64,000 bases of DNA from Gracilinema caldarium (lineage in GTDB: Bacteria > Spirochaetota > Spirochaetia > Treponematales > Breznakiellaceae), in the NCBI RefSeq assembly GCF_029265695.1, contig NZ_JAJUHW010000009.1, positions 1 through 64,000 on the forward strand, given 5' to 3'. Below, one piece after another: positions 39,644-60,173 of the stretch (positions within the stretch are counted from its first letter, which is position 1; every line of letters begins with the position of its first letter). Below the pieces are notes generated by a model. It was given only the letters and a program-made list of their open reading frames with translations, was not told the DNA's origin and did not search any database. Made by a program: the position numbers and the translations under genes.

Positions 39644-40420
39644 TTATGCAATAAGCATAAAAAAGCCCGTGGCAAGAAGCACGAGAAAAATAATTTTACC
39701 AAAGAGAATTTCATCAACCTTATGGTGAATCTTTTCCCCGATAAAAATGCCCGCTGCGAGAAAGGGGAGCATCCCTGCGGTTCCGCTCAAAATTGGGGCT
39801 GTAAAAACGCCAGATCGGATGTAATTGATAAGCAGCACCGTGTTGAGCGTGGTCCAGAGCAGGCAGAGGGTTGCGCGGAAACTTCCCTTGTCGGGGAGCG
39901 TTTTAGAAGCGTAAAGCACCACCAAGGGGCCCCCTGAAGCAAAGGCGCCGTGTACCATGCCGCCTGCGAAGAGGAGCAGGTAGTAAGTAATACGGCTCCG
40001 GAGCCTTTTCCCAAGGGCTCCTTCCGGGGCAGCGGGGCAGTTTTCGTTTTCCTGGTTTGGCCGAGTAAAGCGGCGGTAGACCTGCCAGCCAGCGCTGGCG
40101 ATGATAAAGAGGGCTAAAAGTTTTTTAAGAAGCCGCGGATCAAAGCTCTTAAAGGCCATGATGCCAAAGGGAAGGCCGAGCCCCACAAAAAAAACAATGA
40201 CAAAAAATTCCTTAAAATTGATGAACTTCCATTTGGTTATGACAATATAGAGGGCCAGTATCCATGCCAGGGTTGCAAGTATGGGCACACCGGTTTTGAC
40301 CCCCACGAGGGTGGTAACAAAGGGCAGGGCGAGGACCGTGCAGCCAAAGCCGGTGATCGCTTCCAGGGCATGGGTGATAAGTACCGTAAGGCCCACCAGG
40401 GCAAACACGAGGGGGCTCAT
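39644..40420 (-). CDS. TauE/SafE-family exporter, candidate sulfonate exporter
   Basis: Membrane protein of 258 residues with about eight helices, of the TauE/SafE family. The signature ITGFGCTVLALPFVTTLVG is in the first repeat and MVHGAFASGGPLVVLYASK in the second. Family members export sulfite, sulfoacetate, isethionate or other C2-C3 sulfonates. It is the last gene of the transketolase operon, overlapping the dehydrogenase gene by four bases. In sulfo-transketolase gene sets such an exporter removes the end product, so isethionate is the likely cargo here (inference). Confidence 0.9.
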   Translation of the reverse strand: MSPLVFALVGLTVLITHALEAITGFGCTVLALPFVTTLVGVKTGVPILATLAWILALYIVITKWKFINFKEFFVIVFFVGLGLPFGIMAFKSFDPRLLKKLLALFIIASAGWQVYRRFTRPNQENENCPAAPEGALGKRLRSRITYYLLLFAGGMVHGAFASGGPLVVLYASKTLPDKGSFRATLCLLWTTLNTVLLINYIRSGVFTAPILSGTAGMLPFLAAGIFIGEKIHHKVDEILFGKIIFLVLLATGFFMLIA

Positions 40421-41745
40421 GAAAGCTTCTCCCGTACAAGCTGCCGCACCAGGTCCTGAGTACAGGGCACGGGGTTGTTTTTAAGCTTAAAATCGCTCTG
40501 AGCCTTATCAAAGAGAGCTGCCACCGCTTCCCGATCCACCGAACCATCTGGCCCTGCGGCGCCTGTAAAGCCGGGAATGTCTGAGAACCGATCCGGGAGG
40601 CCCATAAGGTATTTAAGCTCCACAAGCCGGTCCCTGAGATATTGGATATACGCTTCGTCGCTTAATCGAGATGTGGGGCTCTCCGGCCGGCCGCCAGCGT
40701 TTGCTTCTTGGTGCGCTTCTTGGTATACCCGTTTAGCCAGGATGAGGAATTTTCCCCGTACCGCCGGATCTCCCATGTTGAGGTCAAAAATGTTCTGGGT
40801 AAAAAAAGCGCAGGCTGCACCATGGCTCAGGTGCCATTCTTCTGAAAGAATAAAAGACAGGGCATGGATCGCGGCGGTGCCGGTTTTGTTAAATGCAATG
40901 CCCGCCAGGGTGGCTGCCCGCTGCAGGTCAGCCAAAGCGGACGCTTCTTTTGATGCCGGCGCTGCTCCTGTGCCGCCTCCCGCTTCCGGCTGTGGCCGCT
41001 CCTTATGTCTCTCCCGCTCCGCTTCCCGTGCCACACTGGCCCGCCAGGCCGGTTCCAGGCTTGCAAGCACCGCCGCGGAGGCTTCGAGAGCGAGCCGGTC
41101 CGACAGGGCGGTGGCATTTTTGTTCCAGAGGGTTTCCAGCGCGTGGGTTAAGGCATCGTAGCCCGTGGCGGCCACGAGGGGGGGCGGCAGGTCAGCCACG
41201 AGGTCAGGCGAAAGGATGGCGGCCTCCGCCTGGAGGACCGGGCTGTTCAGGGTGTACTTCCTGCCAGACCGGGCGGTGTATACCCCGAAGCGGGTAACCT
41301 CCGAACCTGTGCCGGTGGTGGTTGGTATAAGGATCAGCGGCACCTTCCGTTCCTGGGGTTTAAGGGGCGCTTCGGGGCCCAGGTATTCATCCAGATCGCC
41401 AGGGCTGTCCAGCAGCATGGCCACCGCCTTGGCCGAATCCAGGGTGGATCCGCCCCCAATACCGATGACCGCAGCGGGCCGCTCCCGCCGGGCCTTGGCC
41501 GCCATATCCATAATGTCAGCGCTGGTGGGGTTCGGGACCACCTGGTCCAGAATCTGGAGTTTCCAAAGCCGGTTTAAGTCGGCCAAGGCCCGGTCCCGCA
41601 GCGGGAAGGGCCGCGGATCTACGATACAAAGCACCGGTTCAGAACCGGCGCTCGCAGTACAGTAAACCAGGGCCTCATCCAGCCCTTCGGCGGAAAAACA
41701 AGGGGTCTCAATAATCTTTGTCGGGGAAGCAATGGCGCCTATCAT
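40417..41745 (-). CDS. Iron-containing alcohol dehydrogenase, candidate sulfoacetaldehyde reductase
   Basis: Group III metal-dependent alcohol dehydrogenase, 442 residues. The nucleotide loop is IGIGGGSTLDSAKAVAM, then TTTGTGSEVTRFGV; metal ligands lie in TGYDALTHALE, AAIHALSFIL and LSHGAACAFF. A low-complexity insert of about 30 residues (about 235-265, rich in Ala, Glu, Arg, Gly) splits the helical domain and is unusual. The gene overlaps its neighbours by four bases on each side. In the operon with split transketolase, RpiB-like protein and sulfonate exporter, reduction of sulfoacetaldehyde to isethionate is the best guess; other aldehydes are possible. Confidence 0.85.
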   Translation of the reverse strand: MIGAIASPTKIIETPCFSAEGLDEALVYCTASAGSEPVLCIVDPRPFPLRDRALADLNRLWKLQILDQVVPNPTSADIMDMAAKARRERPAAVIGIGGGSTLDSAKAVAMLLDSPGDLDEYLGPEAPLKPQERKVPLILIPTTTGTGSEVTRFGVYTARSGRKYTLNSPVLQAEAAILSPDLVADLPPPLVAATGYDALTHALETLWNKNATALSDRLALEASAAVLASLEPAWRASVAREAERERHKERPQPEAGGGTGAAPASKEASALADLQRAATLAGIAFNKTGTAAIHALSFILSEEWHLSHGAACAFFTQNIFDLNMGDPAVRGKFLILAKRVYQEAHQEANAGGRPESPTSRLSDEAYIQYLRDRLVELKYLMGLPDRFSDIPGFTGAAGPDGSVDREAVAALFDKAQSDFKLKNNPVPCTQDLVRQLVREKLS

Positions 41746-42230
41746 TTAAAGTTTTCTTCCTCCAGAGCCACTACCTGGTTAAAAGCGTTGGTAAGGAAGT
41801 CCTTTTTAAATTCCATTTTCTGGGTAAAGGACATGGAAAGCCAGGCATCCACGATCTGGCAGCCCAGGAATGGCGCCGTAATCCAGCCCCCCATGGTCAG
41901 GACGTTTGCATTATTGATAATCTTTGCCCGCTCTCCGGAAAAAATATCCACCGCCACCGCAGCATAAACACCCTTGTGCTTGTTTGCCACAATAGCCATA
42001 CCCTGGCCGGTGCCGCAGATGAGGATACCTTTTTGGGCCTCCCCCCGCTGGATTGCCTTGGCAACCTTGGGGGCCTGGATAAAGTAGGGTTCAGGCTTGT
42101 CAGCGCTCATGATGCCATAATCAATAAGGTGAATCTCCGGATGGTTTTCTGTAAGGTGCTTTACGATTTCCCGGGCAAGGGGAAATCCTGAAAGATCGCT
42201 TGCAAGGGCCAGGGTAATTTTCTCATTCAT
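41742..42230 (-). CDS. RpiB/LacAB-like isomerase with altered phosphate site
   Basis: Sugar isomerase of 162 residues in the ribose-5-phosphate isomerase B family. The catalytic Cys72 is kept (ILICGTGQGMAIVANK), as are Asp12 (ASDLSGF) and the Asn-Ala-Asn segment (IINNANVLTMGG). The His after the first Asp, the His of the HNDAN motif (Ile105 here) and the Arg/His residues that grip the substrate phosphate are missing; the usual GGRH-X2-R end is replaced by FTQKMEFKKD. The substrate therefore probably carries no phosphate. A sulfonated tetrose (4-deoxy-4-sulfoerythrose) fits the operon. aaggag precedes the ATG. Confidence 0.8.
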   Translation of the reverse strand: MNEKITLALASDLSGFPLAREIVKHLTENHPEIHLIDYGIMSADKPEPYFIQAPKVAKAIQRGEAQKGILICGTGQGMAIVANKHKGVYAAVAVDIFSGERAKIINNANVLTMGGWITAPFLGCQIVDAWLSMSFTQKMEFKKDFLTNAFNQVVALEEENFK

Positions 42231-44180: not shown

Positions 44181-44202
44181 TTACTTACAGTAAGTAAGTA
44201 AA
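44181..44202 (-). promoter_or_regulatory. Operator A of the ROK regulon, transketolase operon
   Basis: Contains a perfect 17-base palindrome TTACTTAC-A-GTAAGTAA (44181-44197). Read on the minus strand, the 22-base site aligns with sites at 49613, 60174 and 45881. Its first hexamer (TTTACT) could act as -10, although no good -35 lies 17 bases before it. It lies 38 bases before the transketolase start, so binding would block the operon. Confidence 0.8.
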
Positions 44203-45904: not shown

Positions 45905-47125
45905 ATGAGTGGAGTTCCCTTACGAAGCGCCGACATTCGGGAGCGCAATGCCAAAATTATACTCGCCCTGGTCCAAAGCCGCAAGTATATCTCCCAGTCG
46001 GAAGTGGTGGCCTTAACGGGATTACGGGCTCCTACGGTATTCCGTATTTTTACCGAACTAGAAAAAGAGGGTCTTATCCGGCCTGTGCAAGCCGAAGATT
46101 CCCGGCCCTTGGCTCAAAATCGCAAGGACCCAAACAGCTCATCTTCCCTCGTCGGTGAAGAAAAAAAAGGACGAAAACCCCAGTATTTCGAAGTAGTTCC
46201 CGATGCCTTGTACAGCATTGGCATTGATTTCTGGTCCCGTTCGGCTACCCTCGCGGTAAGCGATTTTTCAGGAGAGATCCGTTTTATTGATGAACTTGAA
46301 TTCCCCGATCCTTTGGATGCAGACACCCTTGTTACGGCCCTTCAGACGCTCATAAAACGGGCCCTTAAAAAGAGTGGTATCGATGCGTCGCGGCTCCTGG
46401 GCTTTGGCATTGGCGCCCCGGGCCGCATAGACCTGGAAAAGGGTCTCATCCTCTCTTATCCGCGGATCGCCAAACTTGCCAATTTTCCCCTGGTTTCGGT
46501 TTTGCAGAAACGTTATGACGTTCCTGTCTATATGCATAACAACGCAAGCCTTGCCGCACTGGCAGAATTAAAGTACGGCGCGGCCCGGGGCGCCAAAAGC
46601 CTCTTTGCATTCCTCGTCCGTTCGGGAGTCGGCGGCGCCTACCTGGAAGGTTCCCAACCCTTTACGGTGCTCGGGAAAACAGCCCTGGAAGTAGGACACC
46701 TTTCCTTTAATTGCGAGGGCCCCCACTGTACCTGTGGCGGTCAGGGCTGCCTAGAAGCCTATATTGCCGAGGATGCGGTGCTTCCCTTTATCCGCCGGGT
46801 ATACCCGATAGAGTCTCTTTCCGAACTGGACAAGCTTATTGATTCGGAAATAGGTCCAAAAATCCGCTCAGCCCTGGAAGAGCCCCTGCACATCTTTGAA
46901 CTCGCGGTCCGTAACATTCATACCCTTTTTTCTCCCGAACGGTACCTTATCATCAGCCGATTCTCCGGTTATGCCCGGCTTTTACAGGAGGAACTAAATC
47001 GGCGCCTGGTGGACCTCTGTCAGGGATCGGACCAGGCCATTACAATTGTGGCCGATGTGTATGATTCCCACCGGATTGGCCGGGGGGCCACCGATTTAGT
47101 AATCGAACAGTTTCTAAAACCCTGA
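45905..47125 (+). CDS. ROK-family repressor, likely regulator of the sulfoquinovose regulon
   Basis: Regulator of 406 residues. The N-terminal winged helix (IILALVQSRKYISQSEVVAL, then GLRAPTVFRIFTELEKEGLI) is followed by the ROK sugar-binding domain: IGIDFWSRSATLAVSDFSG, GFGIGAPGRID, and the zinc motif GHLSFNCEGPHCTCGGQGCLE. Its own leader and the leaders of the transketolase, ABC and GH31 operons carry the same operator. Known sulfoquinovose regulators in other bacteria belong to other families (DeoR-type CsqR in E. coli), so a ROK member would be a different solution. The inducer would be sulfoquinovose or an early intermediate (inference). Confidence 0.9.
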   Translation: MSGVPLRSADIRERNAKIILALVQSRKYISQSEVVALTGLRAPTVFRIFTELEKEGLIRPVQAEDSRPLAQNRKDPNSSSSLVGEEKKGRKPQYFEVVPDALYSIGIDFWSRSATLAVSDFSGEIRFIDELEFPDPLDADTLVTALQTLIKRALKKSGIDASRLLGFGIGAPGRIDLEKGLILSYPRIAKLANFPLVSVLQKRYDVPVYMHNNASLAALAELKYGAARGAKSLFAFLVRSGVGGAYLEGSQPFTVLGKTALEVGHLSFNCEGPHCTCGGQGCLEAYIAEDAVLPFIRRVYPIESLSELDKLIDSEIGPKIRSALEEPLHIFELAVRNIHTLFSPERYLIISRFSGYARLLQEELNRRLVDLCQGSDQAITIVADVYDSHRIGRGATDLVIEQFLKP

Positions 47126-47133
47126 TACCCATC

Positions 47134-47161: not shown

Positions 47162-47202
47162 GACCGCTGGGTGTTAGAATCTAATTCATAAAGGGACAAT
47201 CG

Positions 47203-49527
47203 ATGAACAGAAAAGTATGGGGTTTGATGTGCTTATTATGGCTTATTGTAACTGCTTTTCCTGCCGCAGAGACAAGCCCGGAATTAGCTGCCTATCTTCA
47301 GCAAAGTATAGAAATGTGGGATAAGGTGGTTCCTTGGTTCAGCTTGGGATCTGTCCCTGTCACGTCGAATTTCGATGCTGAAACGCTCGTAACCGAGCTG
47401 TCTAAGGATATTACTGAGGCTGGCCGATATAAGGAATTCGAATACCTCTTTAACTATTACAAAGAAAATAAAAACAAAGGAAATTTGGTATGCCGCATTA
47501 TAGAAGCTCGGCCCCCCAGCCCCGGTTTTTGGCCTGCCAGGATCGATGACACTCAGTCTGCCCTGGTTATTAACGCCGCCGATCTTGAATATCTAGCCAA
47601 AGAACCGGCTTTGCTCAAAGCTTCATTTCTTAGAGCCGTTGCCGCTCTCTACTATCTGAAAGAAGCTGCATTCCCTACATTGTACTTTAACGGCAGAAAT
47701 GTCTTATACGAATTTTCTGCCCTTATGACAGGAAACTTCGTTGAATCTATCTACTTAAATGAAATAGTTTTCTTTAATAACAATTCACCCATTGCAAATA
47801 ATTGGCATACTTGGCTTATTGATTCTGCTAAAAACGACAATTTTGTTAGTATTGCGCGCAATCTGTATGGCTTTTCCATGAACTACGCCTATCATTTTCT
47901 TTCAATTCTTAGCAAACTTTCTTCCTACCAACAGATCATGAGCATGCTCAATACGATGAATGATATACCTGTGGATTTGGTGGATAATATAAAAAAGGGC
48001 TTATTTACCCGCTTTGCTTTGACTCCAAAACAGGTAGAAGACGGCATCATTGCACGGACCATCCTGATGACAGATCCGTGGATATTATTGGTTATCAGCC
48101 GGGTAATACCGCCGAATAACAAGGAAATTCAAAATTTGGTTAATAGTACCTATAAAACAATGGATCTTGTTCGGAGCTATTATAAACATTTGGAGCCGCC
48201 ACTTCTCGATCACCGCCAGGCACAGCTTGATTGCAATGCATTCTGGGCTCCCGAACCGTCAATGCTCAGTTATACGGAGCCAGCTAAAATAGAAAAAGGG
48301 ACTGCCGCAGCGCTTTCTGTGCCAGGGGCGGTCAAAACGATCTGGTATCGTGAATGCGATTCCTTTGCCGGTAACCAATATAGGGGCTATATTCCGTTAC
48401 CTGAGCAAGAGGCCCTTGCAACGGCGGCATACCGGTTTTCATACGGCGCTGATGGATCCCTTATGGCTGTTGAGTATTTTAATAAAGGGCATCTGCAGGT
48501 GGGCTATGCCCTGCAGGATGCTGCACGAATTATCATTATTCGAGAAGGCAGAACAGAAATATGGCGGTGGGAGGATGCATCGGGACGTTTAGTCTCCAAT
48601 GACAGCGGTTTTGCCCTCATGAAAGTAGAAACCTTACAAGGGTCTGAAGATGAACAAGCAAAAGGTCTCCGCAGGCTTACCTTTACGTTCTATGACCGGG
48701 ATGGCAGAAGGGTGTTTCATTCTTCTGGTGCCTGGAGTATAGAGCGAAGGATTTCACCCCAGGGATTCGAAGATTCTTATTATGATGACCGAGGCCAGTT
48801 AAGCGAAAATTATTTTGGCTATGCAAAAGTCTGGTATTCCGAGACAGCCGGTACTGCTATGGGGAGTAAAAATCGTATAAACCGGTACGAGTATCGCTAT
48901 TTTGATAAGGACGGGAATCCGGCATGTTCCCAATTTTTGGGTGTCCATGGAACTCTGGAACAGCATACCGAGAATGGCTCTAATTATAGTGTCGAAATAT
49001 CATATATAAATGCACAAGTCCAGCCCAGTAAAATTTTTGACAATAGCTGGATGCAAAGAAAAAAGTTCGGAAAAGACCTATTTGTCTATGAAAACCTCGA
49101 TCGTGAGGGTAAACCCATCGTGTCTCTGTTTGGGTATGCATCGATACAGAGTACTATTGTAAATGGCATGATTGTGGCGGATGCCTTTTACGATGCTGCC
49201 GGAAAAGCGGTGAACAGTCTTGCGGGCTATCATAAACGAAAAATGTCCTATACTGACCGCGGGGATATTGCGGAGCTATCCTATTTTGACGCACGAAATA
49301 AGCCGGTGCTTGGCATGGATGGCATCCACCGCCAGGTGTACAAATATGATAAAAATGGATATTTAGAAGAACTGTTTTTTTATGGTCCCGACGGCAAGCT
49401 CATTAATGATTATTCCGGTGCTGCTCATATACGGTGGTATAAGGACGAACTTGGCCGTACCTATGCTGTGGACGCCTGGGATTCGGCGGGTAACAGGCTC
49501 AGCAGCGGTGCGGGCAAGGATATTTAA
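47203..49527 (+). CDS. Secreted repeat protein with YD-like units, function unknown
   Basis: Exported protein of 774 residues. The signal peptide is GLMCLLWLIVTAFPAAET. Residues 30-380 form a helical region without a known domain. From about residue 410 there are irregular units of 40-55 residues of the type YFDKDGNPACSQFLGVHG and FYDAAGKAVNSLAGYHKRKM: a Tyr/Phe-Asp-X2-Gly turn, a small Gly-Tyr strand, then another Tyr strand. They recall Rhs/YD or MORN-like sugar- or surface-binding repeats but match neither exactly. It lies between the ROK gene and the ABC operon, with its own terminator. No ROK operator precedes it. Confidence 0.7.
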   Translation: MNRKVWGLMCLLWLIVTAFPAAETSPELAAYLQQSIEMWDKVVPWFSLGSVPVTSNFDAETLVTELSKDITEAGRYKEFEYLFNYYKENKNKGNLVCRIIEARPPSPGFWPARIDDTQSALVINAADLEYLAKEPALLKASFLRAVAALYYLKEAAFPTLYFNGRNVLYEFSALMTGNFVESIYLNEIVFFNNNSPIANNWHTWLIDSAKNDNFVSIARNLYGFSMNYAYHFLSILSKLSSYQQIMSMLNTMNDIPVDLVDNIKKGLFTRFALTPKQVEDGIIARTILMTDPWILLVISRVIPPNNKEIQNLVNSTYKTMDLVRSYYKHLEPPLLDHRQAQLDCNAFWAPEPSMLSYTEPAKIEKGTAAALSVPGAVKTIWYRECDSFAGNQYRGYIPLPEQEALATAAYRFSYGADGSLMAVEYFNKGHLQVGYALQDAARIIIIREGRTEIWRWEDASGRLVSNDSGFALMKVETLQGSEDEQAKGLRRLTFTFYDRDGRRVFHSSGAWSIERRISPQGFEDSYYDDRGQLSENYFGYAKVWYSETAGTAMGSKNRINRYEYRYFDKDGNPACSQFLGVHGTLEQHTENGSNYSVEISYINAQVQPSKIFDNSWMQRKKFGKDLFVYENLDREGKPIVSLFGYASIQSTIVNGMIVADAFYDAAGKAVNSLAGYHKRKMSYTDRGDIAELSYFDARNKPVLGMDGIHRQVYKYDKNGYLEELFFYGPDGKLINDYSGAAHIRWYKDELGRTYAVDAWDSAGNRLSSGAGKDI

Positions 49528-49588: not shown

Positions 49589-49589
49589 A

Positions 49590-49634
49590 TTGACAGCTAG
49601 CCATATCCGTGTTTTACTTACTTAGTGAAAGTAA
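49590..49634 (+). promoter_or_regulatory. Promoter and operator B of the ABC importer operon
   Basis: TTGACA (49590-49595), 17 bases, TTTACT (49613-49618). The 22-base ROK operator (49613-49634, core TTACTTAGTGAAAGTAA at 49618-49634) starts with that -10 hexamer. A repressor here would stop transcription. The same arrangement, with the same 17-base spacing, is found upstream of the GH31 operon. Confidence 0.8.
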
Positions 49635-49650: not shown

Positions 49651-50916
49651 ATGAAACGAACGGTAGGAATCATAGGCATCCTTTTGCTGGCTGTTTCTTT
49701 CTTTGCCATGGCAGAGGGACAGAAAGACTCGAGTTCCAAGGAAGTGGTGCTTAAGTGGCCTTGCATCTGGGTCGGCAAGGATTCCAAGGCCGCAGAAGTG
49801 GAAAAACTGGTTAACGAATTTAATGCGGCTAATGCGGGCAAGATCCGGGTTGAAATTGAACCCCAGCCTGACTACGATGGCTATGAACAGAAAATTCGAA
49901 CATCCATTGCCGCGGGGGTAGTACCTGATATATTCACCCTCAAACTTAATCCAACCACCGCAGAATATTATAAGTCTGACCTGCTCATGGATTTTTCTAA
50001 AGAAATTAGCGGTGACTGGAAAGCATCTTTTAAGTCCGGTACCCTGGAACAGGCCACCATCAACGGTGTGATGAAATCTATCCCCTATGAAATAGCCATT
50101 ACTCCCATCTGGTATAACGAAGCGCTCCTTAAAAAAGCAGGGGTAAGCTATCCTAAGACGGTGGATGAAATGTGGGCTGCCTTTGATAAATTAAAGGCTG
50201 CTGGCATTACTCCCGCAAGCCAGATGACCGGCGGTACCAATGCCTGGACCAGCATGCTCTGGTTCTCCCATTTTGCAGCCTCCCTCGGCGGCCCAAAAGT
50301 GTGGGATAAGCCCCTGACTGATCCTGTCTTTGTTAAAGCCGCGGCTCTTCTTAAAAAAATGTACGAAAATGGCTATACCACTGCCGATGCGGTGGGCGGC
50401 GATGCGGGTGTCTCCGGCGGTCACTTTCTGGCTGGCCGGACAGCCCTGTTTTCCAACGGCCCCTGGTATATCGGCAGGGTGAAAAAAGAAGCCCCCGAAG
50501 TTTTTGCGAATACAAAGGTCGCCCCCGCCCCTGCGGCAGGGCCTAACAAGAACGCTATGATCGGTTTCCTTCAGGCGAATATTGCCGCGGGCAACACCAA
50601 GGATCCGGCTAAAAAAGCCGCCCAGATTGCCTTTCTTAAGTGGATGACCAAACCGGAAAACGTAAAGCGGATTGCCCTTTCATCCGGTGCCATGTTCGCC
50701 GTATCCTTTAATCTCACCGATGCGGATGCGGTGGATCCCCTCATGAAGCAGTTCTACGAACTATCAAATTCATCATCCTTTAATGTGATGCATTTGGAAG
50801 GTGCCCGGGGGGCCGAGGTGGTTGCCGAGTTCGGTCAGCAGCTTGCAAAAATGGCTCTGGGCCAGGCTACTCCCGAAGAATTCATGAAAGCCGTCGCTGC
50901 AAAGGAGAAACGGTAA
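49651..50916 (+). CDS. Sugar ABC transporter substrate-binding protein
   Basis: Extracytoplasmic sugar-binding protein of the CUT1 group (SBP_bac_1), 421 residues. The signal peptide is TVGIIGILLLAVSFFAMAEG. The mature fold includes EFNAANAGKIRVEIEPQPDY, AGVVPDIFTLKLNP, PYEIAITPIWYNEALLKKAG and FLAGRTALFSNGPWYIG. ATG 49651 with aaaggaggt is chosen; the frame opens earlier inside the operator. It is the first gene of a ROK-controlled operon, so sulfoquinovose or its glycosides (such as sulfoquinovosyl glycerol) are candidate ligands by co-regulation. Confidence 0.93.
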   Translation: MKRTVGIIGILLLAVSFFAMAEGQKDSSSKEVVLKWPCIWVGKDSKAAEVEKLVNEFNAANAGKIRVEIEPQPDYDGYEQKIRTSIAAGVVPDIFTLKLNPTTAEYYKSDLLMDFSKEISGDWKASFKSGTLEQATINGVMKSIPYEIAITPIWYNEALLKKAGVSYPKTVDEMWAAFDKLKAAGITPASQMTGGTNAWTSMLWFSHFAASLGGPKVWDKPLTDPVFVKAAALLKKMYENGYTTADAVGGDAGVSGGHFLAGRTALFSNGPWYIGRVKKEAPEVFANTKVAPAPAAGPNKNAMIGFLQANIAAGNTKDPAKKAAQIAFLKWMTKPENVKRIALSSGAMFAVSFNLTDADAVDPLMKQFYELSNSSSFNVMHLEGARGAEVVAEFGQQLAKMALGQATPEEFMKAVAAKEKR

Positions 50917-50917
50917 T

Positions 50918-51814
50918 ATGAGACGGGGCGGGAGCGGTCCTTCAGGCCGCAACGGACTGGGAATAGTGGTTTTTCTCGCTCCCGTCCTGGTCTTGTATGC
51001 TGCCTTTTTTATCTACCCCTTGTTTTTTATCGGATTTACCAGTTTGATGGAATGGAACGGCATTTCATCAGCCCGTTTTGTGGGCTTAGAAAACTATGGC
51101 CGCCTCTTTTCCGATGCGACCTTTAAGCTGGGAATCCGAAACAACTTTATCTGGGCCTTTGCCTCAGGGTTCATTCAAATTCCCCTGGCAACCCTGGTGG
51201 CCCTCATTTTGGCCCGCAAGGTCCGCTTCTGGAAGTTCCTGCGGACCCTTTATTTCCTTCCTAACGTTATTTCTGCGGTAGCCCTGGCAATGCTCTGGAA
51301 GGCCATTTATAACCCCTCTTATGGGCTCCTCAACGGGCTCTTAGCCCTTGCGGGCCTGGGGCCCCACAACTGGCTCGGCGATACGGCTACCGCATTGCCC
51401 GCGGTGATTACCCAATCGGTGCTGTACATCGGCTACTTTATGATCATCATTCTCGCCGCCATTACCACTATCCCAGACAGTCTTTATGAGGCAGCGGAGA
51501 TCGACGGGGCTTCAGTCATTCAACAGACCTTTAAAATTACGATTCCCATGATTACGGGGACCCTGGTCACGAGCATTACCCTGGCCATGGCCTACGGGAT
51601 GCGGCATTTCGAAGCTACCTTTCTGATGACCGGAGGAGGGCCAGCCTATGCGACCACCACCATGGGTATCCAGCTTTACAATAAAATGGACGCCTTCCGC
51701 TATGGCGAAGCGAGCGCTATTGGTGCAATTTTAATACTTCTTGGCACGGTGCTTATTGTGGCCATCCGGGCACTTCTCTCTAAAAATGATCCCATGTCGG
51801 AGGCTGCTCAATGA
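50918..51814 (+). CDS. Sugar ABC transporter permease, MalF/UgpA type
   Basis: First membrane subunit of the importer, 298 residues. The N-terminal helix LGIVVFLAPVLVLYAAFFIY is followed by five more helices. The EAA loop reads DSLYEAAEIDGASVIQQTFK. It begins one base after the binding-protein stop, with ggag before the ATG, and overlaps the next permease by four bases. No ATPase gene is in the operon. Confidence 0.95.
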   Translation: MRRGGSGPSGRNGLGIVVFLAPVLVLYAAFFIYPLFFIGFTSLMEWNGISSARFVGLENYGRLFSDATFKLGIRNNFIWAFASGFIQIPLATLVALILARKVRFWKFLRTLYFLPNVISAVALAMLWKAIYNPSYGLLNGLLALAGLGPHNWLGDTATALPAVITQSVLYIGYFMIIILAAITTIPDSLYEAAEIDGASVIQQTFKITIPMITGTLVTSITLAMAYGMRHFEATFLMTGGGPAYATTTMGIQLYNKMDAFRYGEASAIGAILILLGTVLIVAIRALLSKNDPMSEAAQ

Positions 51815-52704
51815 AGGCCTTGCAAACACATCACAGTTCTGAAGAACAGAGCATCAGGAACTCTCAGGTTCTTACAATGATCGGTACTGCCCTCGGCAAG
51901 GCTGGCGTTATCCTTGTTCTGGTTTTTTTCTTTCTTATCGCAGCCTTTCCGCTTATTTGGCTTTTTATCTCTTCTCTTAAAACAAACCTGGAACTCCAGG
52001 TTTCGCCCTTTACCCTGCCAAAGGTTCCGCAATGGGGCAACTACGGCAACGCTCTTAAAATGGCAAACCTGCCGGCTTTGTTTCTCCACTCAATCTATGT
52101 AGCCTTCGGGGCGGTGTTCCTGAACCTTTTTGTGACGAGTCTTGCGGGCTTTGTGCTTTCCCGGGAACAGTTCCGGGGCAGGGATGCGATCCATACCGTG
52201 CTTACCGCAGGAGTTCTGGTTCCCATCATCTCCTTTATGGTGCCCTATTTTACCCTCATTACCAAAGCAAGGCTCTACGACAACCTCTTAGCCCTCATCA
52301 TCGTGTATAGTTCCATCAACATACCCGTATCCATGTTCCTGGTAACCGCCTTTATGCGCTCCATTCCAAAAGAAATGGAAGAAGCTGCGGTGATCGATGG
52401 CTGCTCAATTTTGCAGCGTTATACCAAGATTGTGCTGCCCCTGGCCCAGACAGGCCTTGTGACCGCCGGAACCTTCTGTTTTATCTATGCCTGGAACGAG
52501 TTTATTATGGCCCTGCTTCTCACCAGTTCATCTTCAAGCCGGACATTGCAGCTGGGTATCCGCTTTTTTACAAGCCAATTCGTGACGGATTATACCTCCA
52601 TGTATGCCGCCATTATGATATCGATCATTCCGAGCATCGCCCTCTATACGATGCTCCACAACCGAATTATTTCTGGACTGACCGCCGGAGCGGTCAAAGG
52701 ATAG
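51811..52704 (+). CDS. Sugar ABC transporter permease, MalG/UgpE type
   Basis: Second membrane subunit, 297 residues, of the same importer. Its N-terminal helix is VILVLVFFFLIAAFPLIWLF. The EAA loop is KEMEEAAVIDGCSILQRYTK. It overlaps the first permease (ATGA) and is seven bases before the FucI-like gene. As in the importer at the left end of the window, the ATPase must come from elsewhere in the genome. Confidence 0.95.
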   Translation: MKALQTHHSSEEQSIRNSQVLTMIGTALGKAGVILVLVFFFLIAAFPLIWLFISSLKTNLELQVSPFTLPKVPQWGNYGNALKMANLPALFLHSIYVAFGAVFLNLFVTSLAGFVLSREQFRGRDAIHTVLTAGVLVPIISFMVPYFTLITKARLYDNLLALIIVYSSINIPVSMFLVTAFMRSIPKEMEEAAVIDGCSILQRYTKIVLPLAQTGLVTAGTFCFIYAWNEFIMALLLTSSSSSRTLQLGIRFFTSQFVTDYTSMYAAIMISIIPSIALYTMLHNRIISGLTAGAVKG

Positions 52705-52711
52705 TAGTACC

Positions 52712-54028
52712 ATGAAACAACATATTACTCTCGGTGTGGTCTGCCTCGCGCGGAAGACCTATGACTGGAAAGCAGCGGGGGAAATCTGGAAACAGCTCAG
52801 GCAGGAGCTTGCAAAGCTGGAAGCGGTTACCCTTGTGGCCCCCGAAGAATTAATTATAGAAGTGGAAGATGCCGAGGCAGCTGCGGCCCTTTTAGCGGAA
52901 AAACGGGTTGATGCGGTGGCAATCATTTCCGGCACCTTCCATTTGGGGCATTTGGCGCTTTTAATCGCCAAACAGGTAAAAAAGCCCATACTGCTCTGGG
53001 CCCTGCCGGAACTGCCCTACGACGGCGGTAAAATCAGGCTCAATTCGGTCTGCGGTGCGAACCTCAATGCGTCGAACCTGTACAAGGGCGGCATCCGGAA
53101 TTACCGGGTCGTGGTCCGGCCCGATATGGACCAGGACTGGCTCGATGCTATCCGGGTCCGCGTGGCCCTTTCGACCGCCCGGGTAGGTATTATCGGGTAC
53201 CGGGCCCACGGCTTCTTTAATCTGAGCACCGCAGACCTGGCTCTTTATAACCAGCTGGGAGTGCTGGTCGATCATTTTGAGCTGGATGAGGTGTTTAGTT
53301 ATCCGGTGCCAGATAAAGAAGTCGCCCGGCGAAAGTCCCAGCTGCAGGGTCTATTTGATGTCTCAGGCATTAGCGATACCCAACTTGATAAGGTGGCGGC
53401 CCTGTCAGCAAAACTCGACGCGTTCCTTACTGCAAAGCGGCTTACGGCCCTGGCTATACGGTGCTGGCCCGAATTTGCCGCCACCTATGGTATTAGCCCC
53501 TGTGCGGCCATGAGTCTCCTCCAGGCTGAGGACCGTATCCTCGCCTGCGAGGGAGATGTGGAGGGGGCCCTTTCCATGCTGGCCCACCGGGCTGTGGGGG
53601 CCGAGACGCCCTTCCTCTTTGATTTTTCTCAGATAGACCTGGAACAGAATTTTGCCCTCTTTTGGCACTGTGGGGTGGCCCCCTGCAACCTGTGGGACGG
53701 TCGCTGTGTACGTTCTTTGGATACCTATTTTGCAGGGGGCAAGGGCGTTACTGCCGACTTTGTGTTGAAAAGCGGGGACCTCTCCATACTGAGGCTCGAT
53801 ACCTGTGACGGCAAATTCCGTATGCTTCTGGATACCGCCCGGGCGGTCCCCATGGATAAGCTCCTTAAAGGGACCTACATGAAGGTCGTTTTTGACCGCA
53901 ATGTAGCAGATGTGCTTGCCACGGTGGTGAACAACGGCATCGCCCACCATGCATCGGTGGTATACGGCACCTTTGTGAAACCCTTTGAAATTTTAGCCCA
54001 CATCGAAGGCTGGGAAATAGTGCGATAA
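52712..54028 (+). CDS. L-fucose/L-arabinose isomerase-family protein
   Basis: Sugar isomerase-like protein of 438 residues. The N-terminal domain (ITLGVVCLARKTYDW, VDAVAIISGTFHLGHLALLI) and the C-terminal domain (ACEGDVEGALSMLAHRAVG with acidic metal ligands, LFWHCGVAPCNL with a metal His) follow the FucI layout, though it is shorter than classical FucI (about 590). It closes the ROK-controlled ABC operon. FucI/AraA-like enzymes act as sulfoquinovose isomerase in one reported sulfoglycolytic route, as I recall, so it may turn sulfoquinovose or a related aldose into its ketose. A second candidate isomerase is encoded at 57285. Confidence 0.8.
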   Translation: MKQHITLGVVCLARKTYDWKAAGEIWKQLRQELAKLEAVTLVAPEELIIEVEDAEAAAALLAEKRVDAVAIISGTFHLGHLALLIAKQVKKPILLWALPELPYDGGKIRLNSVCGANLNASNLYKGGIRNYRVVVRPDMDQDWLDAIRVRVALSTARVGIIGYRAHGFFNLSTADLALYNQLGVLVDHFELDEVFSYPVPDKEVARRKSQLQGLFDVSGISDTQLDKVAALSAKLDAFLTAKRLTALAIRCWPEFAATYGISPCAAMSLLQAEDRILACEGDVEGALSMLAHRAVGAETPFLFDFSQIDLEQNFALFWHCGVAPCNLWDGRCVRSLDTYFAGGKGVTADFVLKSGDLSILRLDTCDGKFRMLLDTARAVPMDKLLKGTYMKVVFDRNVADVLATVVNNGIAHHASVVYGTFVKPFEILAHIEGWEIVR

Positions 54029-55115: not shown

Positions 55116-55142
55116 TCAATTTTTATTTTTTAGGAGCGGAGT

Positions 55143-55601: not shown

Positions 55602-55640
55602 TGAATTATAGCGGAAACTTGGCCAATCTGTGATTGCCTG

Positions 55641-55799
55641 GAGCCGCGCGCAACCGCACAGCCACGCGCACAACCTTGCACAGCCGCACAGCTGCGCGCA
55701 ACCGCACAGCTGCGCGTACAACCTTGCACAGCCGCGCGCACAACCTTGCACAGCCGCGCGCACAACCTTGCACAGCCGCACAGCTGCGTGCACAGCCGA
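55641..55799. repeat. Tandem repeat array (22-bp unit with variants)
   Basis: GC-rich array between two convergent genes. A 22-base unit beginning CAACCTTGCACAGCCG recurs at 55671, 55719, 55741 and 55763; the two at 55719 and 55741 are identical. The remaining sequence is made of related CACAGCTGCGCG and CGCGCAACCG pieces. The array ends at the stop of the GPH transporter gene. Frames reading through it give only Cys/Ala/Arg repeats and are not taken as genes. Confidence 0.85.
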
Positions 55800-57248
55800 C
55801 TATCCTGTTATTTTTTTAAGTTTCATCCCTTCCAGCTCGGTGCAGGAAAAATCTTGGCCGAGCCGGTTTGCCTCCAGAGCCTTCCGCATAAGGGCAAAGG
55901 TTTGTGGGGTTATCGGGTAGCGAATGGCCAGTATGGTTCCAAGGCCGACAAAGACAAGGGGCCCGAACACAAAAATGAGTCTAATCCCCTCAATTGCGGC
56001 GGATGACTGCTGTGCTGCCCCAGCGCTGTAGCCGATTCCCTGCAGCAAAAGCCCAAAGACCCACAGCGTAAAGGCCTGGACTAGCTTACGGCACAGGGTA
56101 AACACGCCGGCCACACTGCCTGCCCGTTCAATATGGTTCGTGAGTTCATCCGCATCGGAAGACTCTGGCAGCATAGCCCAGGGCATGGCTACCACCGGAG
56201 ACAGCCCCAAGCCGAGTATGGCTGAGGCGATAATCAGCAGTATGGCAGGACTTTCGGGCCTTAAGGTAATTAAGAACAGGGCTACAAGAAATACGATTCC
56301 CGCTCCGACAGCGTAGGACCTTCCCTTGCCGATCCGGTTTGCCAGCATAATATGGAGCGGCAGGGAAATGAGCTGGGCAATCAGCATGGACCCAAGACAA
56401 AGGTTGTAGATGCTGCCCCGGCCGATGTAGTAGGTAACAAAATAGACAAAGGAAGCGGAAAGTATATCCAGGGCAGTGTACCCCAAGAGATACATGCCGA
56501 TATGGAGCCTGAATGAACGGCAGGCAAGGAGACTTTTAAGATCCTTAAAGGACTGGAGGAGCCCTGCGGTATTTTGAGCCCCATTTCGTCCCTTTCCCCC
56601 TGGAGCATCGGGCACAGGTTCTTCCCAGGTCCCCAGGAACACAACAATCCAGGGGAGGGCGTAGAGTATACCAAAAAGAAGGCCTACTAAAAAAAAGCCC
56701 TGGGACGGATTATCCCGATACAGGTTTTTTACTAAAAAGCCTGGGATGGTTCCTGCAATCAAGGCAGAAAGCTGAGAAAAGAGCATCCGCGCACCGGAAA
56801 GCCGGGCCCGTTCCTTGTAGTCGCCGCTCATTTCCGCCGGCAGCGAAGAATAGGGTACCATCACTATGGTATAGACAGTGCAGAATACAATGTAGCTCGC
56901 CAGGTAATACACAAAGGTTGTTACTTGGCTCGGAAACCGAAGGTTTATCCAAAGCATCCAAAAACTGACAAAGACCGGAACTATGCCGGCAAGAAAATAA
57001 ACTCGGCGCCTTCCAAAACGGCTCTTCGTTCGATCCGATAAAAGCCCCATGAGCGGGTCCGATACTGCGTCCCACACTTTGCCGACAAAAACTGCCAGGC
57101 CCGCAAGAAACGGCGAAAGGCCAACCACATCGGTAAGGAAATATATAAAAAGTGTTGATATAATTAAAAAGGAACCTCCGCCGTACAGGTCCCCCAACCC
57201 ATAGGATATCAGAGCCCCTGCGCCAATTCGCCTTTTTTGTTCCGCCAT
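55800..57248 (-). CDS. GPH-family sugar:cation symporter, candidate sulfoquinovose importer
   Basis: Major facilitator of the glycoside-pentoside-hexuronide family, 482 residues, about 12 helices. Family marks are ISYGLGDLYGGGSFLIIS, VGKVWDAVSDPLMGLLSDRT and KSRFGRRRVYFLAG. The E. coli sulfoquinovose importers YihO and YihP are also GPH members. It is the third gene of the GH31 operon, 36 bases after the DUF4867-like gene and with aggaggg before its ATG. Sulfoquinovose or its glycoside is the likely cargo. Confidence 0.92.
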   Translation of the reverse strand: MAEQKRRIGAGALISYGLGDLYGGGSFLIISTLFIYFLTDVVGLSPFLAGLAVFVGKVWDAVSDPLMGLLSDRTKSRFGRRRVYFLAGIVPVFVSFWMLWINLRFPSQVTTFVYYLASYIVFCTVYTIVMVPYSSLPAEMSGDYKERARLSGARMLFSQLSALIAGTIPGFLVKNLYRDNPSQGFFLVGLLFGILYALPWIVVFLGTWEEPVPDAPGGKGRNGAQNTAGLLQSFKDLKSLLACRSFRLHIGMYLLGYTALDILSASFVYFVTYYIGRGSIYNLCLGSMLIAQLISLPLHIMLANRIGKGRSYAVGAGIVFLVALFLITLRPESPAILLIIASAILGLGLSPVVAMPWAMLPESSDADELTNHIERAGSVAGVFTLCRKLVQAFTLWVFGLLLQGIGYSAGAAQQSSAAIEGIRLIFVFGPLVFVGLGTILAIRYPITPQTFALMRKALEANRLGQDFSCTELEGMKLKKITG

Positions 57249-57284: not shown

Positions 57285-57968
57285 TCATTGATACAGAACC
57301 TTTATGTTCTTCCCCCGAATGCCCGGATAGGCACCTTTTTGTATCAGGACTGTCCGTTCCGGGTGGGCAAGAAGCCACTTGTTTTTCATGAAAAGACAAC
57401 AGTCTTCGGCACCGAGCCCGCGCTGTGCCATGGTTTCTTCAGACAAGGGAGTATTGGTTCCCCTTGGCAGGATGATGAGAGTCTTAAAGCCCGAGTCAGA
57501 GAGCCGGCAGGGAGAAAAGTGGAGTGTCCGGGGATATAGTTCAATACAGTCACCCGCTTTAAGGTAGAGGGCTTGTACATTGTCTGCATCGTACATCCAC
57601 GGTTCATCAATATCTTCCCACTTCCCCAGGAGCAGCACCTGATCGGTCAAGGCTATAAGGATCTCAGGGGACTTATGGTACTCAAGGCCGTTCAAGGTCA
57701 TATTGGGACCTGCCACATAACCAACTTGAACATCCATGTCGCCGAATACCAGGTTGTACAATTCCTTGCCGGGCAGGGCTTCCAATTCTGGTACCGAAGG
57801 GATGTACCGGTTTTCTGTAAGATGAGCAGGAATAAGCGGAGGAGCTTCAGAAAGCAGCATATTGATGAACGGGTGCCGGTGTTGTGCGCCGTATACCCCA
57901 AAGGCCCGCTCTTCCGGAGTGATGATACTGAGCTCAGGGTTCAGGGCCTGTAGGTCTTCTTTGTTCAT
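57285..57968 (-). CDS. DUF4867-like cupin protein, candidate sulfoquinovose isomerase
   Basis: Protein of 227 residues with a cupin-type core. Probable metal ligands are in LEYHKSPEILIALTDQVLLL (His and Glu) and in YPRTLHFSPCRL (His). The N-terminal KEDLQALNPELSIITPEERA and the late FMKNKWLLAHPE fit DUF4867. Members of this family are the sulfoquinovose isomerases of sulfo-transaldolase gene sets, as I recall; they turn sulfoquinovose into 6-deoxy-6-sulfofructose. Its place between the sulfoquinovosidase-like and importer genes agrees. It starts 15 bases after the GH31 stop. Confidence 0.8.
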   Translation of the reverse strand: MNKEDLQALNPELSIITPEERAFGVYGAQHRHPFINMLLSEAPPLIPAHLTENRYIPSVPELEALPGKELYNLVFGDMDVQVGYVAGPNMTLNGLEYHKSPEILIALTDQVLLLGKWEDIDEPWMYDADNVQALYLKAGDCIELYPRTLHFSPCRLSDSGFKTLIILPRGTNTPLSEETMAQRGLGAEDCCLFMKNKWLLAHPERTVLIQKGAYPGIRGKNIKVLYQ

Positions 57969-57983: not shown

Positions 57984-60158
57984 TTACTGTGTTTTCTGTA
58001 CCGTGATGGCATAGTCAGCGCTGGTGGGGCGGCTTTCGTAATAGGAAGTGCAGTTTTTTGCCGCATCCACAAAAAGACCTTCCCAGGGGGAGCCGGCGCG
58101 GCAAAAGACCGGCGGCTCACCGAGATAAGCCCTGACGGTGCATTCTGTTCCGGATGGAGCGGGACTTTTATAGACCGCGCCGCTCCACAGGTGCCGCCAG
58201 ATGCCCGGCGGCAGATGGAGATGCCGTTCATTGCAGAGCGATTCCAGCACCGGGGCCACAAGGAGATCGGGGCCCAGAAGGTACTGGTCCTTAATATGCC
58301 AGGCCACGGGGTCCTCCTCATAATGGAGCAGGAGGGGCCGCATGACCGGAATGCCCTTTGATGCGTTTTCTTCCGAAAGGTGCCTCTGGTAGGGCAGTAG
58401 TTCGCGGTGAAAGTGCCCCATGCGGGCAAGTTGAGCCAGGGTTTCTTTATCGCTATCGAATTGCCAGTTGTCCCGCGGCCTGTTACCTTCGTGGCCCCGC
58501 ATAACCGGCGTTAGGGCTGCAAACTCCGCCCAGCGCATAAAGAGCTCCTTCGTGCGCTTCATTCCAAAGAGAGTGGTGTAACCGCCGATGTCGCTGTGAT
58601 GCAGCCCGTGGCCCGACATAGCGAGGGACAGGGCCGCCGGAATCACTGAGGGGAGTCCGTCATCTTCGGACCAGTCAACATTTTGGTCTCCGGCCCACAT
58701 GAGTGGGCACCATTTCTGGGAGCCCGGTCCGCCGGCCCGCATAAAGTAGACAATGTGCCCCCGTGCTTCCGGGTGTTCGCTGTACCACTCCTGTACCGCC
58801 TCTCTGTTACAGCGGGCCCAGAGGGCTGGCCATTCATTGTGTGCCAGTTCAGCGGACCGGCCCGAATACAGCACCGTATCAGTCGGAAGGTATTCTCCAA
58901 AGTCGGCCATCCATCCTGAAAGTCCAAGGTCGAGTAAGTTTTGCTTAATTATTTCTTTATACCAGGAGTAAGCAGCAGGATTTGTAAAATCGATGATTCC
59001 AGCATCAAACTCCCCAAAATCAACAAGGTATAGATGGCCTTCGCTGTTTTTAGCAAGGAAATCCCGGCGTACCGCTTCTTCGTATAATGCATGGTCTTTA
59101 AGCACATAGGGGTTGATGTACCCCAGGAAGCGGACGCCCTGGTCGCGCCACCTTTTAATAGCCTGGTCCAAATTCGGGTACCGTTCCCGGTCCCACTCCC
59201 AGTTCCAGCGGAGTCGCTGGCCAAAACGGGTAATGCGTATTCCTTCCCAATCCTGAGCCCAGATTCCTGCTACCGGGACGCCCGCATTGCGGGCTGTGTT
59301 CAGTTTTTGTTCGCATGTTTCGGTACCGCCCTGAATTCCTAGGATAATCCCCTCCATTACCCAGTCTGGGAGCTCTTCCTGGCGGCCAAAAAAGGCTGAC
59401 TGGTCCTGTATTGTTTCCAGCATGCTCTTCCTGCTGCCGATAATGATGCGGGAGGGCAGGTCCCAGAAATACAATTCATGGTGGTCTGGCAGGGTAAAAT
59501 CAAAAACTGAATAGGCAGGACAATCGGCAAAATACCAAAGTCGTCGGGAGCTTACAAAACTTGTCTGGGGAAAAAAGGTCCAGTAATAATCCCCGCCCGC
59601 CCCTTCAGCCACATCGGCCAGCCAGGTGACATAGGATTTTTTGTTTCGTCCCACCCCCTGTTCGCTGGTCCAGAGCGGGAATGAACGGCCCCGCAGGTTA
59701 AAATAGCTGAATTGTTCGCCGCAGCCGTACACCAATTCTTCCTGTTGTGCGGAGAAATGAAAGCGCCAGCGGTTCGGTTTTCCCCGTTTGCTATGCTTTC
59801 CCTGTAGAGCTGCCCCGACGCTGCTCTGGTCCGAAAAGGAGAGCTCTAGCCGCCCATTTTGAACCAATGCTGTTAAGACCATTCTGTACTGAGTACCCTG
59901 GCCCACATCACGGGAAAAGCGGATGACGAGCCGGCCTGTGTCAGATTCTAGTATTTCCCAGTCCGTAAGGCCTGCAAGTTCCTTTACATGTTCAGTGATA
60001 TGGAAATTTCCCCGGAACATCCGGTATTTGCCTGTGCCGCTGCCCGCATATACAAAGGGTTCGGCCCATGAATGGCTTATAATTTTTTTGCCGTCAAAAT
60101 TTATTTCAAATGATTCGGTATCGGATATGAGCTCTAAAAGGGAAGATTCAGGGGTCAT
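57984..60158 (-). CDS. GH31 sulfoquinovosidase-like enzyme
   Basis: Glycosidase of about 724 residues that would free sulfoquinovose from its glycosides. Counting from ATG 60158, the nucleophile is Asp419 (WMADFGEYLP) and the acid/base Asp491 (WAGDQNVDW). The residues that hold the sulfonate in E. coli YihQ (Gln288, Arg301, Trp304, nucleophile Asp405) are matched by Gln302, Arg315, Trp318 and Asp419, a constant offset of 14; the SDIGGYTTL Tyr is also kept. Ordinary alpha-glucosidases lack this Gln/Arg/Trp set. ATG 60158 has ggag six bases upstream; ATG 60170 touches the operator. First gene of the operon. Confidence 0.9.
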   Translation of the reverse strand: MTPESSLLELISDTESFEINFDGKKIISHSWAEPFVYAGSGTGKYRMFRGNFHITEHVKELAGLTDWEILESDTGRLVIRFSRDVGQGTQYRMVLTALVQNGRLELSFSDQSSVGAALQGKHSKRGKPNRWRFHFSAQQEELVYGCGEQFSYFNLRGRSFPLWTSEQGVGRNKKSYVTWLADVAEGAGGDYYWTFFPQTSFVSSRRLWYFADCPAYSVFDFTLPDHHELYFWDLPSRIIIGSRKSMLETIQDQSAFFGRQEELPDWVMEGIILGIQGGTETCEQKLNTARNAGVPVAGIWAQDWEGIRITRFGQRLRWNWEWDRERYPNLDQAIKRWRDQGVRFLGYINPYVLKDHALYEEAVRRDFLAKNSEGHLYLVDFGEFDAGIIDFTNPAAYSWYKEIIKQNLLDLGLSGWMADFGEYLPTDTVLYSGRSAELAHNEWPALWARCNREAVQEWYSEHPEARGHIVYFMRAGGPGSQKWCPLMWAGDQNVDWSEDDGLPSVIPAALSLAMSGHGLHHSDIGGYTTLFGMKRTKELFMRWAEFAALTPVMRGHEGNRPRDNWQFDSDKETLAQLARMGHFHRELLPYQRHLSEENASKGIPVMRPLLLHYEEDPVAWHIKDQYLLGPDLLVAPVLESLCNERHLHLPPGIWRHLWSGAVYKSPAPSGTECTVRAYLGEPPVFCRAGSPWEGLFVDAAKNCTSYYESRPTSADYAITVQKTQ

Positions 60159-60173
60159 TAACATCTCCATGAT

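Follow-up and report, generated by a model that had tools for sequence, protein, structure and literature searches.

We analysed a 64,000-nucleotide stretch of Gracilinema caldarium DNA (NCBI RefSeq assembly GCF_029265695.1, contig NZ_JAJUHW010000009.1, positions 1 to 64,000; hereafter the window). In its genome, which measures 3.04 Mb in 88 contigs and is 95% complete, the window is contig C24. G. caldarium belongs to the family Breznakiellaceae and the order Treponematales. Sulfoquinovose (SQ) is a sulfosugar of plants and cyanobacteria. Positions 39644–60170 hold what we predict, with good support from the sequence, to be genes for SQ uptake and for reductive, isethionate-forming sulfo-transketolase (sulfo-TK) sulfoglycolysis. 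The parts at the locus are a split transketolase (SqwGH), SqwI, SqwF, SqwE, a FucI-fold isomerase, a DUF4867 protein, YihQ, an ATP-binding cassette (ABC) importer lacking its ATPase, a GPH symporter and a ROK regulator (Table 1).

On the minus strand an operon runs from 44143 to 39644 in the order transketolase N-half, transketolase C-half, RpiB-family gene, iron alcohol dehydrogenase (ADH) and TauE gene. Neighbouring genes in it overlap by 1–4 bases, save for a 60-base gap ahead of the RpiB-family gene. A plus-strand block from 45905 to 54028 carries the ROK gene, a gene for a 774-amino-acid (aa) protein, the gene for a solute-binding protein (SBP), two permease genes and the FucI-type isomerase gene. 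A terminator-like hairpin (49553–49582) lies between the 774-aa gene and the SBP gene; hence this block is probably two transcription units. The last block, from 60170 to 55800 on the minus strand, holds the GH31, DUF4867 and GPH symporter genes in that order. Promoter-like matches are no commoner in the region than in shuffles (19 against 18.6), and we therefore assign no promoters.

Every gene named by the initial annotation was found at its place and on its strand. Its coordinates were also right, except for the start of the SBP gene, which is better placed at the ATG at 49651, preceded by the ribosome-binding site AAAGGAGG, than at the GTG at 49609. On the complete chromosome of G. caldarium (G012) the cluster genes are the same and their relative order is kept. 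There, about 15 kb separates the ThiF gene from the sqw genes, and the sigma-factor and MotA-like genes found at 54080–55601 in the window are absent. YihQ and the isomerase occur in all four Gracilinema-genus genomes. Compared with those of G012, the cluster genes other than the 774-aa gene are 67–94% identical.

Table 1. Genes and operator-like sites of the predicted sulfosugar cluster, in window coordinates (HTH, helix-turn-helix; TPP, thiamine pyrophosphate).
Feature	Position	Strand	Basis
SqwE, TauE/SafE-type sulfonate exporter, 258 aa	39644..40420	-	PF01925 76 bits; near SqwF in other sqw loci
SqwF, predicted sulfoacetaldehyde reductase, iron ADH family, 442 aa	40417..41745	-	PF00465 and PF25137
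SqwI, RpiB-family isomerase	41742..42230	-	PF02502; ortholog group; altered active site
sqw transketolase C-half, 313 aa	42291..43232	-	PF02779 and PF02780; PDB 6yaj/6yak split transketolase
sqw transketolase N-half (TPP-binding), 303 aa	43232..44143	-	PF00456 194 bits; top PDB match 6yak, a split-chain transketolase
Operator-like palindrome ahead of sqw operon	44181..44201		exact TTACTTACASTAAGTAAGTAA match; 0 expected from shuffling
Operator-like palindrome just ahead of ROK start codon	45882..45902		3 mismatches; same site before ROK in G012 and G115
ROK-family transcription regulator, proposed sulfosugar repressor	45905..47125	+	PF00480; MarR-type/winged HTH matches
774-aa protein, apparent signal peptide (by eye), fast-evolving	47203..49527	+	directly after ROK gene
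Operator-like palindrome ahead of ABC importer/isomerase operon	49614..49634		1 mismatch; conserved in four genus genomes
ABC solute-binding protein (start revised from 49609)	49651..50916	+	PF13416/PF01547
ABC importer permease 1	50918..51814	+	PF00528
ABC importer permease 2	51811..52704	+	PF00528
Divergent FucI/SftI-type isomerase, proposed SQ to 6-deoxy-6-sulfofructose	52712..54028	+	NCBIfam SftI match; fold
GPH-type cation symporter	55800..57248	-	PF13347 271 bits; NCBIfam gph 249, cut-off 231
SqvB/SftX, DUF4867 protein, proposed SQ ring opener	57285..57968	-	PF16161 213 bits, cut-off 28.7
YihQ sulfoquinovosidase (GH31)	57984..60170	-	NCBIfam PRK10426 910 bits, cut-off 553
Operator-like palindrome ahead of yihQ	60174..60194		exact match; same place in G012, G115 and G129

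Enzymes and transporters of the predicted pathway

The genome encodes a separate full-length transketolase of 654 aa, and RpiA, outside the cluster. Protein families, PDB matches and a quick tree of N-halves set the split, TPP-dependent transketolase apart from this housekeeping enzyme. The tree has 88 rows and covers the N-halves, the C-half standing outside it; 34 of its 84 inner branches are unresolved, and long rows, the genome's own transketolase among them, are flagged. The window row forms one group (SH-aLRT 99) with 68 sqw-adjacent rows and eight other split transketolases, and the 11 remaining rows, including the genome's own transketolase, fall outside.

The RpiB-family gene next to the transketolase is an SqwI ortholog by its ortholog group, by the loci that share it and by its active-site residues. 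It is present at no less than 70% identity in 33 of 194 genomes of the order (its own included), the next matches reaching at most 47%. All 81 of 81 SqwI rows have Leu at E. coli RpiB His10, Ile or Val at His99 and Trp at Arg110, with Cys66 kept, whereas 20 control RpiB-like proteins have His10 in 13, His99 in 14 and Arg110 in 16 cases. We take these RpiB numbers and roles as given, with His99 presumably serving furanose ring opening. The loss of His99 fits 4-deoxy-4-sulfoerythrose because this substrate has no O4, so that a furanose ring cannot close. It would equally suit a tetrose 4-phosphate.

The iron ADH is assigned as SqwF by its family, its position in the operon and a shared signature. 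D197, H201, H294 and H308, the presumed metal ligands, are kept and F298 is shared in the window protein and in 26 of 26 other SqwF rows. This Phe replaces what we take to be a second-shell His in classical iron ADHs, whose residue numbers and roles are likewise our assumption. The only comparable paralog in the same genome, L211, has the His; the comparison rests on this protein, as a second paralog (L213) did not align over the motif. SqwE is a predicted TauE-type exporter by family and position. SqwF follows SqwI in three genus relatives, and SqwE does so too in the two whose contigs extend that far.

Upstream in the proposed pathway, the GH31 enzyme aligns to E. coli YihQ (5aed, E 5.6e-243), and all seven residues checked (Q262, Q288, R301, W304, D405, D472 and Y508) are conserved, as the initial annotation had said of its sulfoquinovosidase residues. 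We take D405 to be the nucleophile, D472 the acid/base and the other five the sulfonate site. The isomerase has no match in a PDB sequence search, and its fold was therefore compared instead. The predicted structure (predicted local distance difference test score, pLDDT, 93) has an arabinose/fucose isomerase fold, with template modelling scores of 0.78–0.87 over the query. E280, D304 and H413 are the same in all 27 aligned rows, the FucI residue numbers being those we take to apply, and 22 homologs, 56–67% identical, sit in other sqw loci. The cluster proteins scanned with Pfam include no ABC ATPase; a UgpC-type ATPase (487 bits, cut-off 432) is encoded elsewhere in the genome.

Sulfo-TK loci in other genomes

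Searching named genomes with the SqwI alignment yielded 269 relatives. We kept the best 80, so that the set of loci is biased towards close relatives. The 80 loci come mostly from Spirochaetota; six are from Chloroflexota and two from Verrucomicrobiota, one is a Clostridiales record, and three bear no title beyond "bacterium". Their genes were counted as tblastn hits. Twenty control loci were drawn from 59 lower-identity SqwI matches (34–40%) of order genomes.

A transketolase half lies directly before SqwI in 72 of the 75 loci with at least 1.2 kb upstream; the other five loci are too short. Downstream of SqwI (68 loci with at least 1.5 kb) we found SqwF in 28 loci, SqwD and/or SqwKL in 31, neither in 9 and both in 0. 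L089, which is counted among the 31 oxidative loci, has its SqwD match on the opposite strand and an aldehyde:ferredoxin oxidoreductase nearer by. In three oxidative clusters from the same taxonomic order (L041, L044 and L047) a gene resembling acylating sulfoacetaldehyde dehydrogenase takes the SqwF position, together with genes for CoA-ligase subunits; the three dehydrogenases score 512–527 bits on NF047625, where the cut-off is 600. The 42 loci of at least 17 kb include 28 with a YihQ-like match, 26 with the isomerase and 23 with DUF4867, the YihQ-like matches in Chloroflexota being only 25–34% identical. No YihQ, DUF4867, isomerase, SqwF or transketolase N-half was found in the 20 control loci, which had one transketolase C-half, one SqwD-like match and two permease-pair matches.

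A shared operator-like palindrome

The intergenic stretches before the sqw operon and before yihQ contain the same palindrome. At up to three mismatches, TTACTTACASTAAGTAAGTAA has five matches at four places, all in the cluster and none elsewhere in the genome; shuffling expects no matches in the window at this threshold. All matches in the genus relatives (four of four in G012, four of four in G115, three of three in G129) adjoin cluster genes as well, and in G012 and G115 the same four operator positions are the only matches in the genome. The third palindrome of G129 stands beside ThiF at a contig end, and the ROK gene is not on that contig. As a control, the pattern was reversed; it then matched 0, 1, 0 and 2 times in the present genome (G000), G012, G115 and G129. 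A looser pattern yielded one extra match outside the cluster here (G000:C34) and one in G. caldarium, which is no more than the control. Since the same palindrome stands before every one of the four proposed transcription units and is missing from the rest of the genome at up to three mismatches, these units are, judged from their DNA, one sulfosugar regulon.

The site is not confined to the genus. At up to four mismatches the 80 named loci, which include L066 and L067 from the Gracilinema genus, contain 81 non-overlapping sites in 48 loci. Sixty permuted patterns gave a mean of 0.67 sites and a maximum of 3 on the same loci, and the palindrome has 0 sites in the 20 control loci at the same threshold. 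Most sites (74 of 81) lie at the starts of cluster genes: transketolase 32, isomerase 18, SBP 13, ROK 8, YihQ 2 and SqwD 1. We think it likely that the 21-base operator TTACTTACANTAAGTAAGTAA marks sulfo-TK genes across Spirochaetota whatever the end product, and that the neighbouring ROK protein reads it and acts as a repressor responsive to sulfosugars. From the position of the gene, the ROK protein would repress through the palindrome, and the site just ahead of its own start codon suggests putative autoregulation.

Other features of the cluster and of related loci

The 774-aa protein has no Pfam, NCBIfam or PDB match. It was seen only in the Gracilinema genus, in two of the 58 family genomes drawn (both from the genus) and also in G115. 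At 38% identity to its G. caldarium counterpart it evolves much faster than its neighbours. Its C-terminal half looks repeat-like by eye, and an AlphaFold2 model built from two sequences is useless (mean pLDDT 32). Short tandem-like repeats rich in GC (CGCACAGCTGCGCGCAACC...) lie at 55600–55800 of the window, flanked by the MotA-like and GPH symporter genes.

Reductive sulfo-TK clusters with YihQ, isomerase and DUF4867 matches also occur in Breznakiella homolactica RmG30 and Sphaerochaeta halotolerans 4-11 (L107 and L108). Two Verrucomicrobiota metagenome-assembled genomes (MAGs; L127 and L130) have the reductive core of SqwGH, SqwI and SqwF, with SqwE in L127. Five spirochaete SqwI loci (L094, L114, L122, L123 and L135) have neither SqwF nor SqwD/KL nearby; a major facilitator superfamily transporter gene follows SqwI in L094.

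Four of the six Chloroflexota loci (L086:10639-15486, L118:10489-15536, L102 and L089) show a different arrangement, in which SqwGH and SqwI are followed by GH31 and an aldehyde:ferredoxin oxidoreductase, with no SqwF; the remaining two, L085 and L110, end too soon. The oxidoreductases of L089, L102 and L118 are 58–60% identical to that of L086. A TauE gene follows the oxidoreductase in L086, and SqwE-like matches are present in L102 and L118. The oxidoreductase is possibly a third fate of sulfoacetaldehyde, to sulfoacetate with ferredoxin.

Among the eight split transketolases away from SqwI (L214–L221), those whose scanned contexts gave a clue are L219, which lies in an RbsB-type importer operon, and L220, which adjoins an RbsB-type binding protein. 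With at least two of them beside RbsB-type importer genes, this set may point to another sugar route.

Discussion

Our analysis makes it very probable that the cluster is a single SQ regulon for import, YihQ, isomerase, SqwGH/SqwI, isethionate export and ROK repression. The gene families, the SqwI ortholog group, the active-site signatures, the conserved clustering and the shared site can be seen directly. The reactions, and isethionate as the product, would follow by analogy with the published pathway. SQ-glycerol or SQ would enter through the ABC importer, with its ATPase encoded elsewhere, and/or through the GPH symporter, and YihQ would free SQ. The DUF4867 protein probably accelerates ring opening of SQ, which the FucI-fold isomerase would convert to 6-deoxy-6-sulfofructose. 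The split transketolase would then move a two-carbon unit to glyceraldehyde-3-phosphate and leave 4-deoxy-4-sulfoerythrose, which SqwI would turn into the ketose for a second transketolase round. The total would be two xylulose-5-phosphate and one sulfoacetaldehyde. SqwF would reduce sulfoacetaldehyde to isethionate, and SqwE would export it. Until a sulfosugar is present, the ROK repressor would keep all units off at the TTACTTACASTAAGTAAGTAA operator.

Several observations weigh against this interpretation. The protein models are not decisive. SqwI passes the RpiB/LacAB cut-off of TIGR00689 (109 against 88 bits), so that models alone would name it a sugar-phosphate isomerase. SqwF scores 132.5 bits where the cut-off for the sulfoacetaldehyde reductase SarD is 700, its top NCBIfam match is another enzyme, PsrA (149.3 bits, cut-off 423.7), and it is only 34–49% identical to SqwF outside the genus. 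The isomerase has SftI as its only NCBIfam match, at 208.6 bits over residues 10–425 of 438 and with a cut-off of 700; eight other isomerases scanned also stay below this cut-off (128–377 bits). The eight split transketolases away from SqwI, 61–68% identical to the window N-half, are nested in the sqw group, and hence the transketolase is by itself not diagnostic of the pathway. Ten of the 42 SqwI loci of at least 17 kb have no YihQ, SftI or SqvB match, and yihQ of the genus relative G129 (G129:C111:7143-9281, L171) contains one in-frame TAG. As for regulation, 32 of 66 testable loci have a site before the transketolase at up to four mismatches and 34 have none, so that the remainder must rely on other regulators or on diverged sites. 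That the ROK protein binds the palindrome is a guess, made because of the position of its gene and because 38 of 48 loci with sites have ROK-like genes; 17 of 32 loci without sites have them too.

One could argue that the cluster degrades another sugar, for example of the tetrose or apiose type, by the same reaction logic and with no sulfonate. Tetrose and pentose-phosphate routes likewise make use of split transketolases and RpiB-type isomerases, the related split transketolases near RbsB-type genes lie outside sqw loci, and the loss of His99 would suit a tetrose phosphate. The NCBIfam model for D-erythrulose-4-phosphate isomerase also matches, at 99 bits and below its cut-off of 240. We nevertheless hold a non-sulfonated substrate to be very unlikely. 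It leaves YihQ with all seven checked residues, the DUF4867 protein and the TauE exporter without a place, as well as the sulfoacetaldehyde dehydrogenase-like gene at the SqwF position in all three related loci scanned. Moreover, none of the cluster proteins scanned was recognisable as a sugar kinase: the ROK protein contains an HTH, and a phosphofructokinase gene lies outside the cluster at 62486.

That gene (62486–63592) was considered as a sulfofructose kinase of the sulfo-EMP2 pathway and rejected, as it scores as an ordinary 6-phosphofructokinase (PRK03202 402 bits, cut-off 253). The Pfam scan of 20 window proteins showed no SqiA-type aldolase family.

A sulfo-TK pathway that ends in sulfoacetate rather than isethionate has similarly little going for it. 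The oxidative SqwD/KL branch is common in related loci, and some oxidative clusters occur in the same taxonomic order. However, in the window SqwF and SqwE come directly after SqwI, SqwF is likewise placed in the genus relatives and carries the shared signature, and in none of the 68 related loci do the two branches occur together. Pfam scans of 20 window proteins revealed neither SqwD nor SqwKL, no search for them having been made in the remainder of the genome.

It is harder still to believe that these are neighbouring operons under independent regulation, not all of them for SQ. The genes do lie on different strands, and the ThiF gene is far from sqw in G. caldarium, but the same palindrome precedes each unit. 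Finally, it is barely conceivable that the split transketolase and the RpiB-like protein are ordinary pentose-phosphate enzymes with an unrelated GH31 and importer nearby: both belong to pentose-phosphate families, and no second RpiB-family gene was found in the genome, but a full-length transketolase and RpiA exist elsewhere, the N-half tree and the altered SqwI active site speak against it, and one operator is common to all units. A firm grouping with pentose-phosphate or polyol enzymes, together with activities of those kinds only, had been named beforehand as what would count against the pathway. The comparisons of the N-half, the RpiB-like protein and the ADH do not overturn the pathway: the first two lie outside the pentose-phosphate groups and the ADH has the SqwF signature, which upholds the reductive sulfo-TK assignment.

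The best described counterpart is the reductive sulfo-TK pathway of Clostridium sp. MSTE9 (SqwGH, SqwI, SqwF, SqwE, SqvB, SqvD and YihQ), and for each of its enzymatic steps the window encodes a counterpart, judged by family and context (PMC9594981, PMC11659671, PMC12890257). Unlike MSTE9, Gracilinema has an isomerase of a divergent FucI/SftI subfamily, a ROK regulator with an operator-like site, separate units on both strands, and both ABC and GPH transporters. The initial annotation took this last combination to be new, but SBP and GPH matches occur together in three of the 42 loci of at least 17 kb (L084, L122 and L123, whose GPH proteins are 58%, 43% and 43% identical to the window symporter). 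The oxidative variant (SqwD, SqwKL), listed in passages of a 2026 review for Acholeplasma and Spirochaetes (PMC12890257), has the same SqwGH and SqwI core. It leads from sulfoacetaldehyde to sulfoacetate, and in the three loci scanned the genes are followed by one for a DASS-type transporter. This branch is not present in the Gracilinema cluster.

The initial annotation also knew of no description in spirochaetes. This claim fails, as sulfo-TK in Spirochaetes is already in print (PMC12890257, PMC13219744). The review names Spirochaetes under both variants of sulfo-TK, with reference to Liu 2021 and Chu 2023 (PMC12890257), and excerpts of another 2026 paper report that isethionate is formed from SQ in rumen microcosms, where a Sphaerochaetaceae genome transcribes sulfo-TK, and that 11.8% of 246 Sphaerochaetaceae genomes encode the pathway (PMC13219744). 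This genome, Neosphaerochaeta fermentans MAG SQrumen3, is thus also a spirochaete with a transcribed, isethionate-forming sulfo-TK pathway, but it belongs to another family and, according to the same excerpts, also encodes SqgA (PMC13219744). The words Gracilinema and Breznak- are absent from the main text of that paper. One further paper names sulfoglycolysis together with Treponema; judged by its title, it deals with the vaginal and anal microbiome. In the openly licensed literature we found no paper naming SQ with a ROK-family regulator, none linking SQ with Breznakiella, none pairing sulfoacetaldehyde with aldehyde ferredoxin oxidoreductase and, among the 10 titles listed of 285 papers, none on a shared operator tying sulfo-TK gene groups. 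What is new here is modest: the Gracilinema genus, the operator-defined regulon, the SqwI and SqwF signatures, and some leads from side observations.

Sulfolipid should be plentiful in cyanobacterial mats. The type strain of G. caldarium (formerly Spirochaeta caldaria DSM 7334), cultured and sequenced, comes from such a mat in a hot spring, as parts of its description state (PMC3739177). This makes it possible to test the pathway in a spirochaete in pure culture instead of in a rumen microcosm. Our results place a complete predicted isethionate-forming sulfosugar pathway in Gracilinema, a free-living spirochaete, and the Chloroflexota loci point to a possible third disposal route for sulfoacetaldehyde. 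With the shared operator there is now a defined hypothesis for how sulfo-TK genes are regulated, and missing members of the regulon can be sought by it. If this hypothesis is true, the operator would be a homology-free tag for sulfosugar genes, including the apparently secreted 774-aa protein encoded after the regulator gene.

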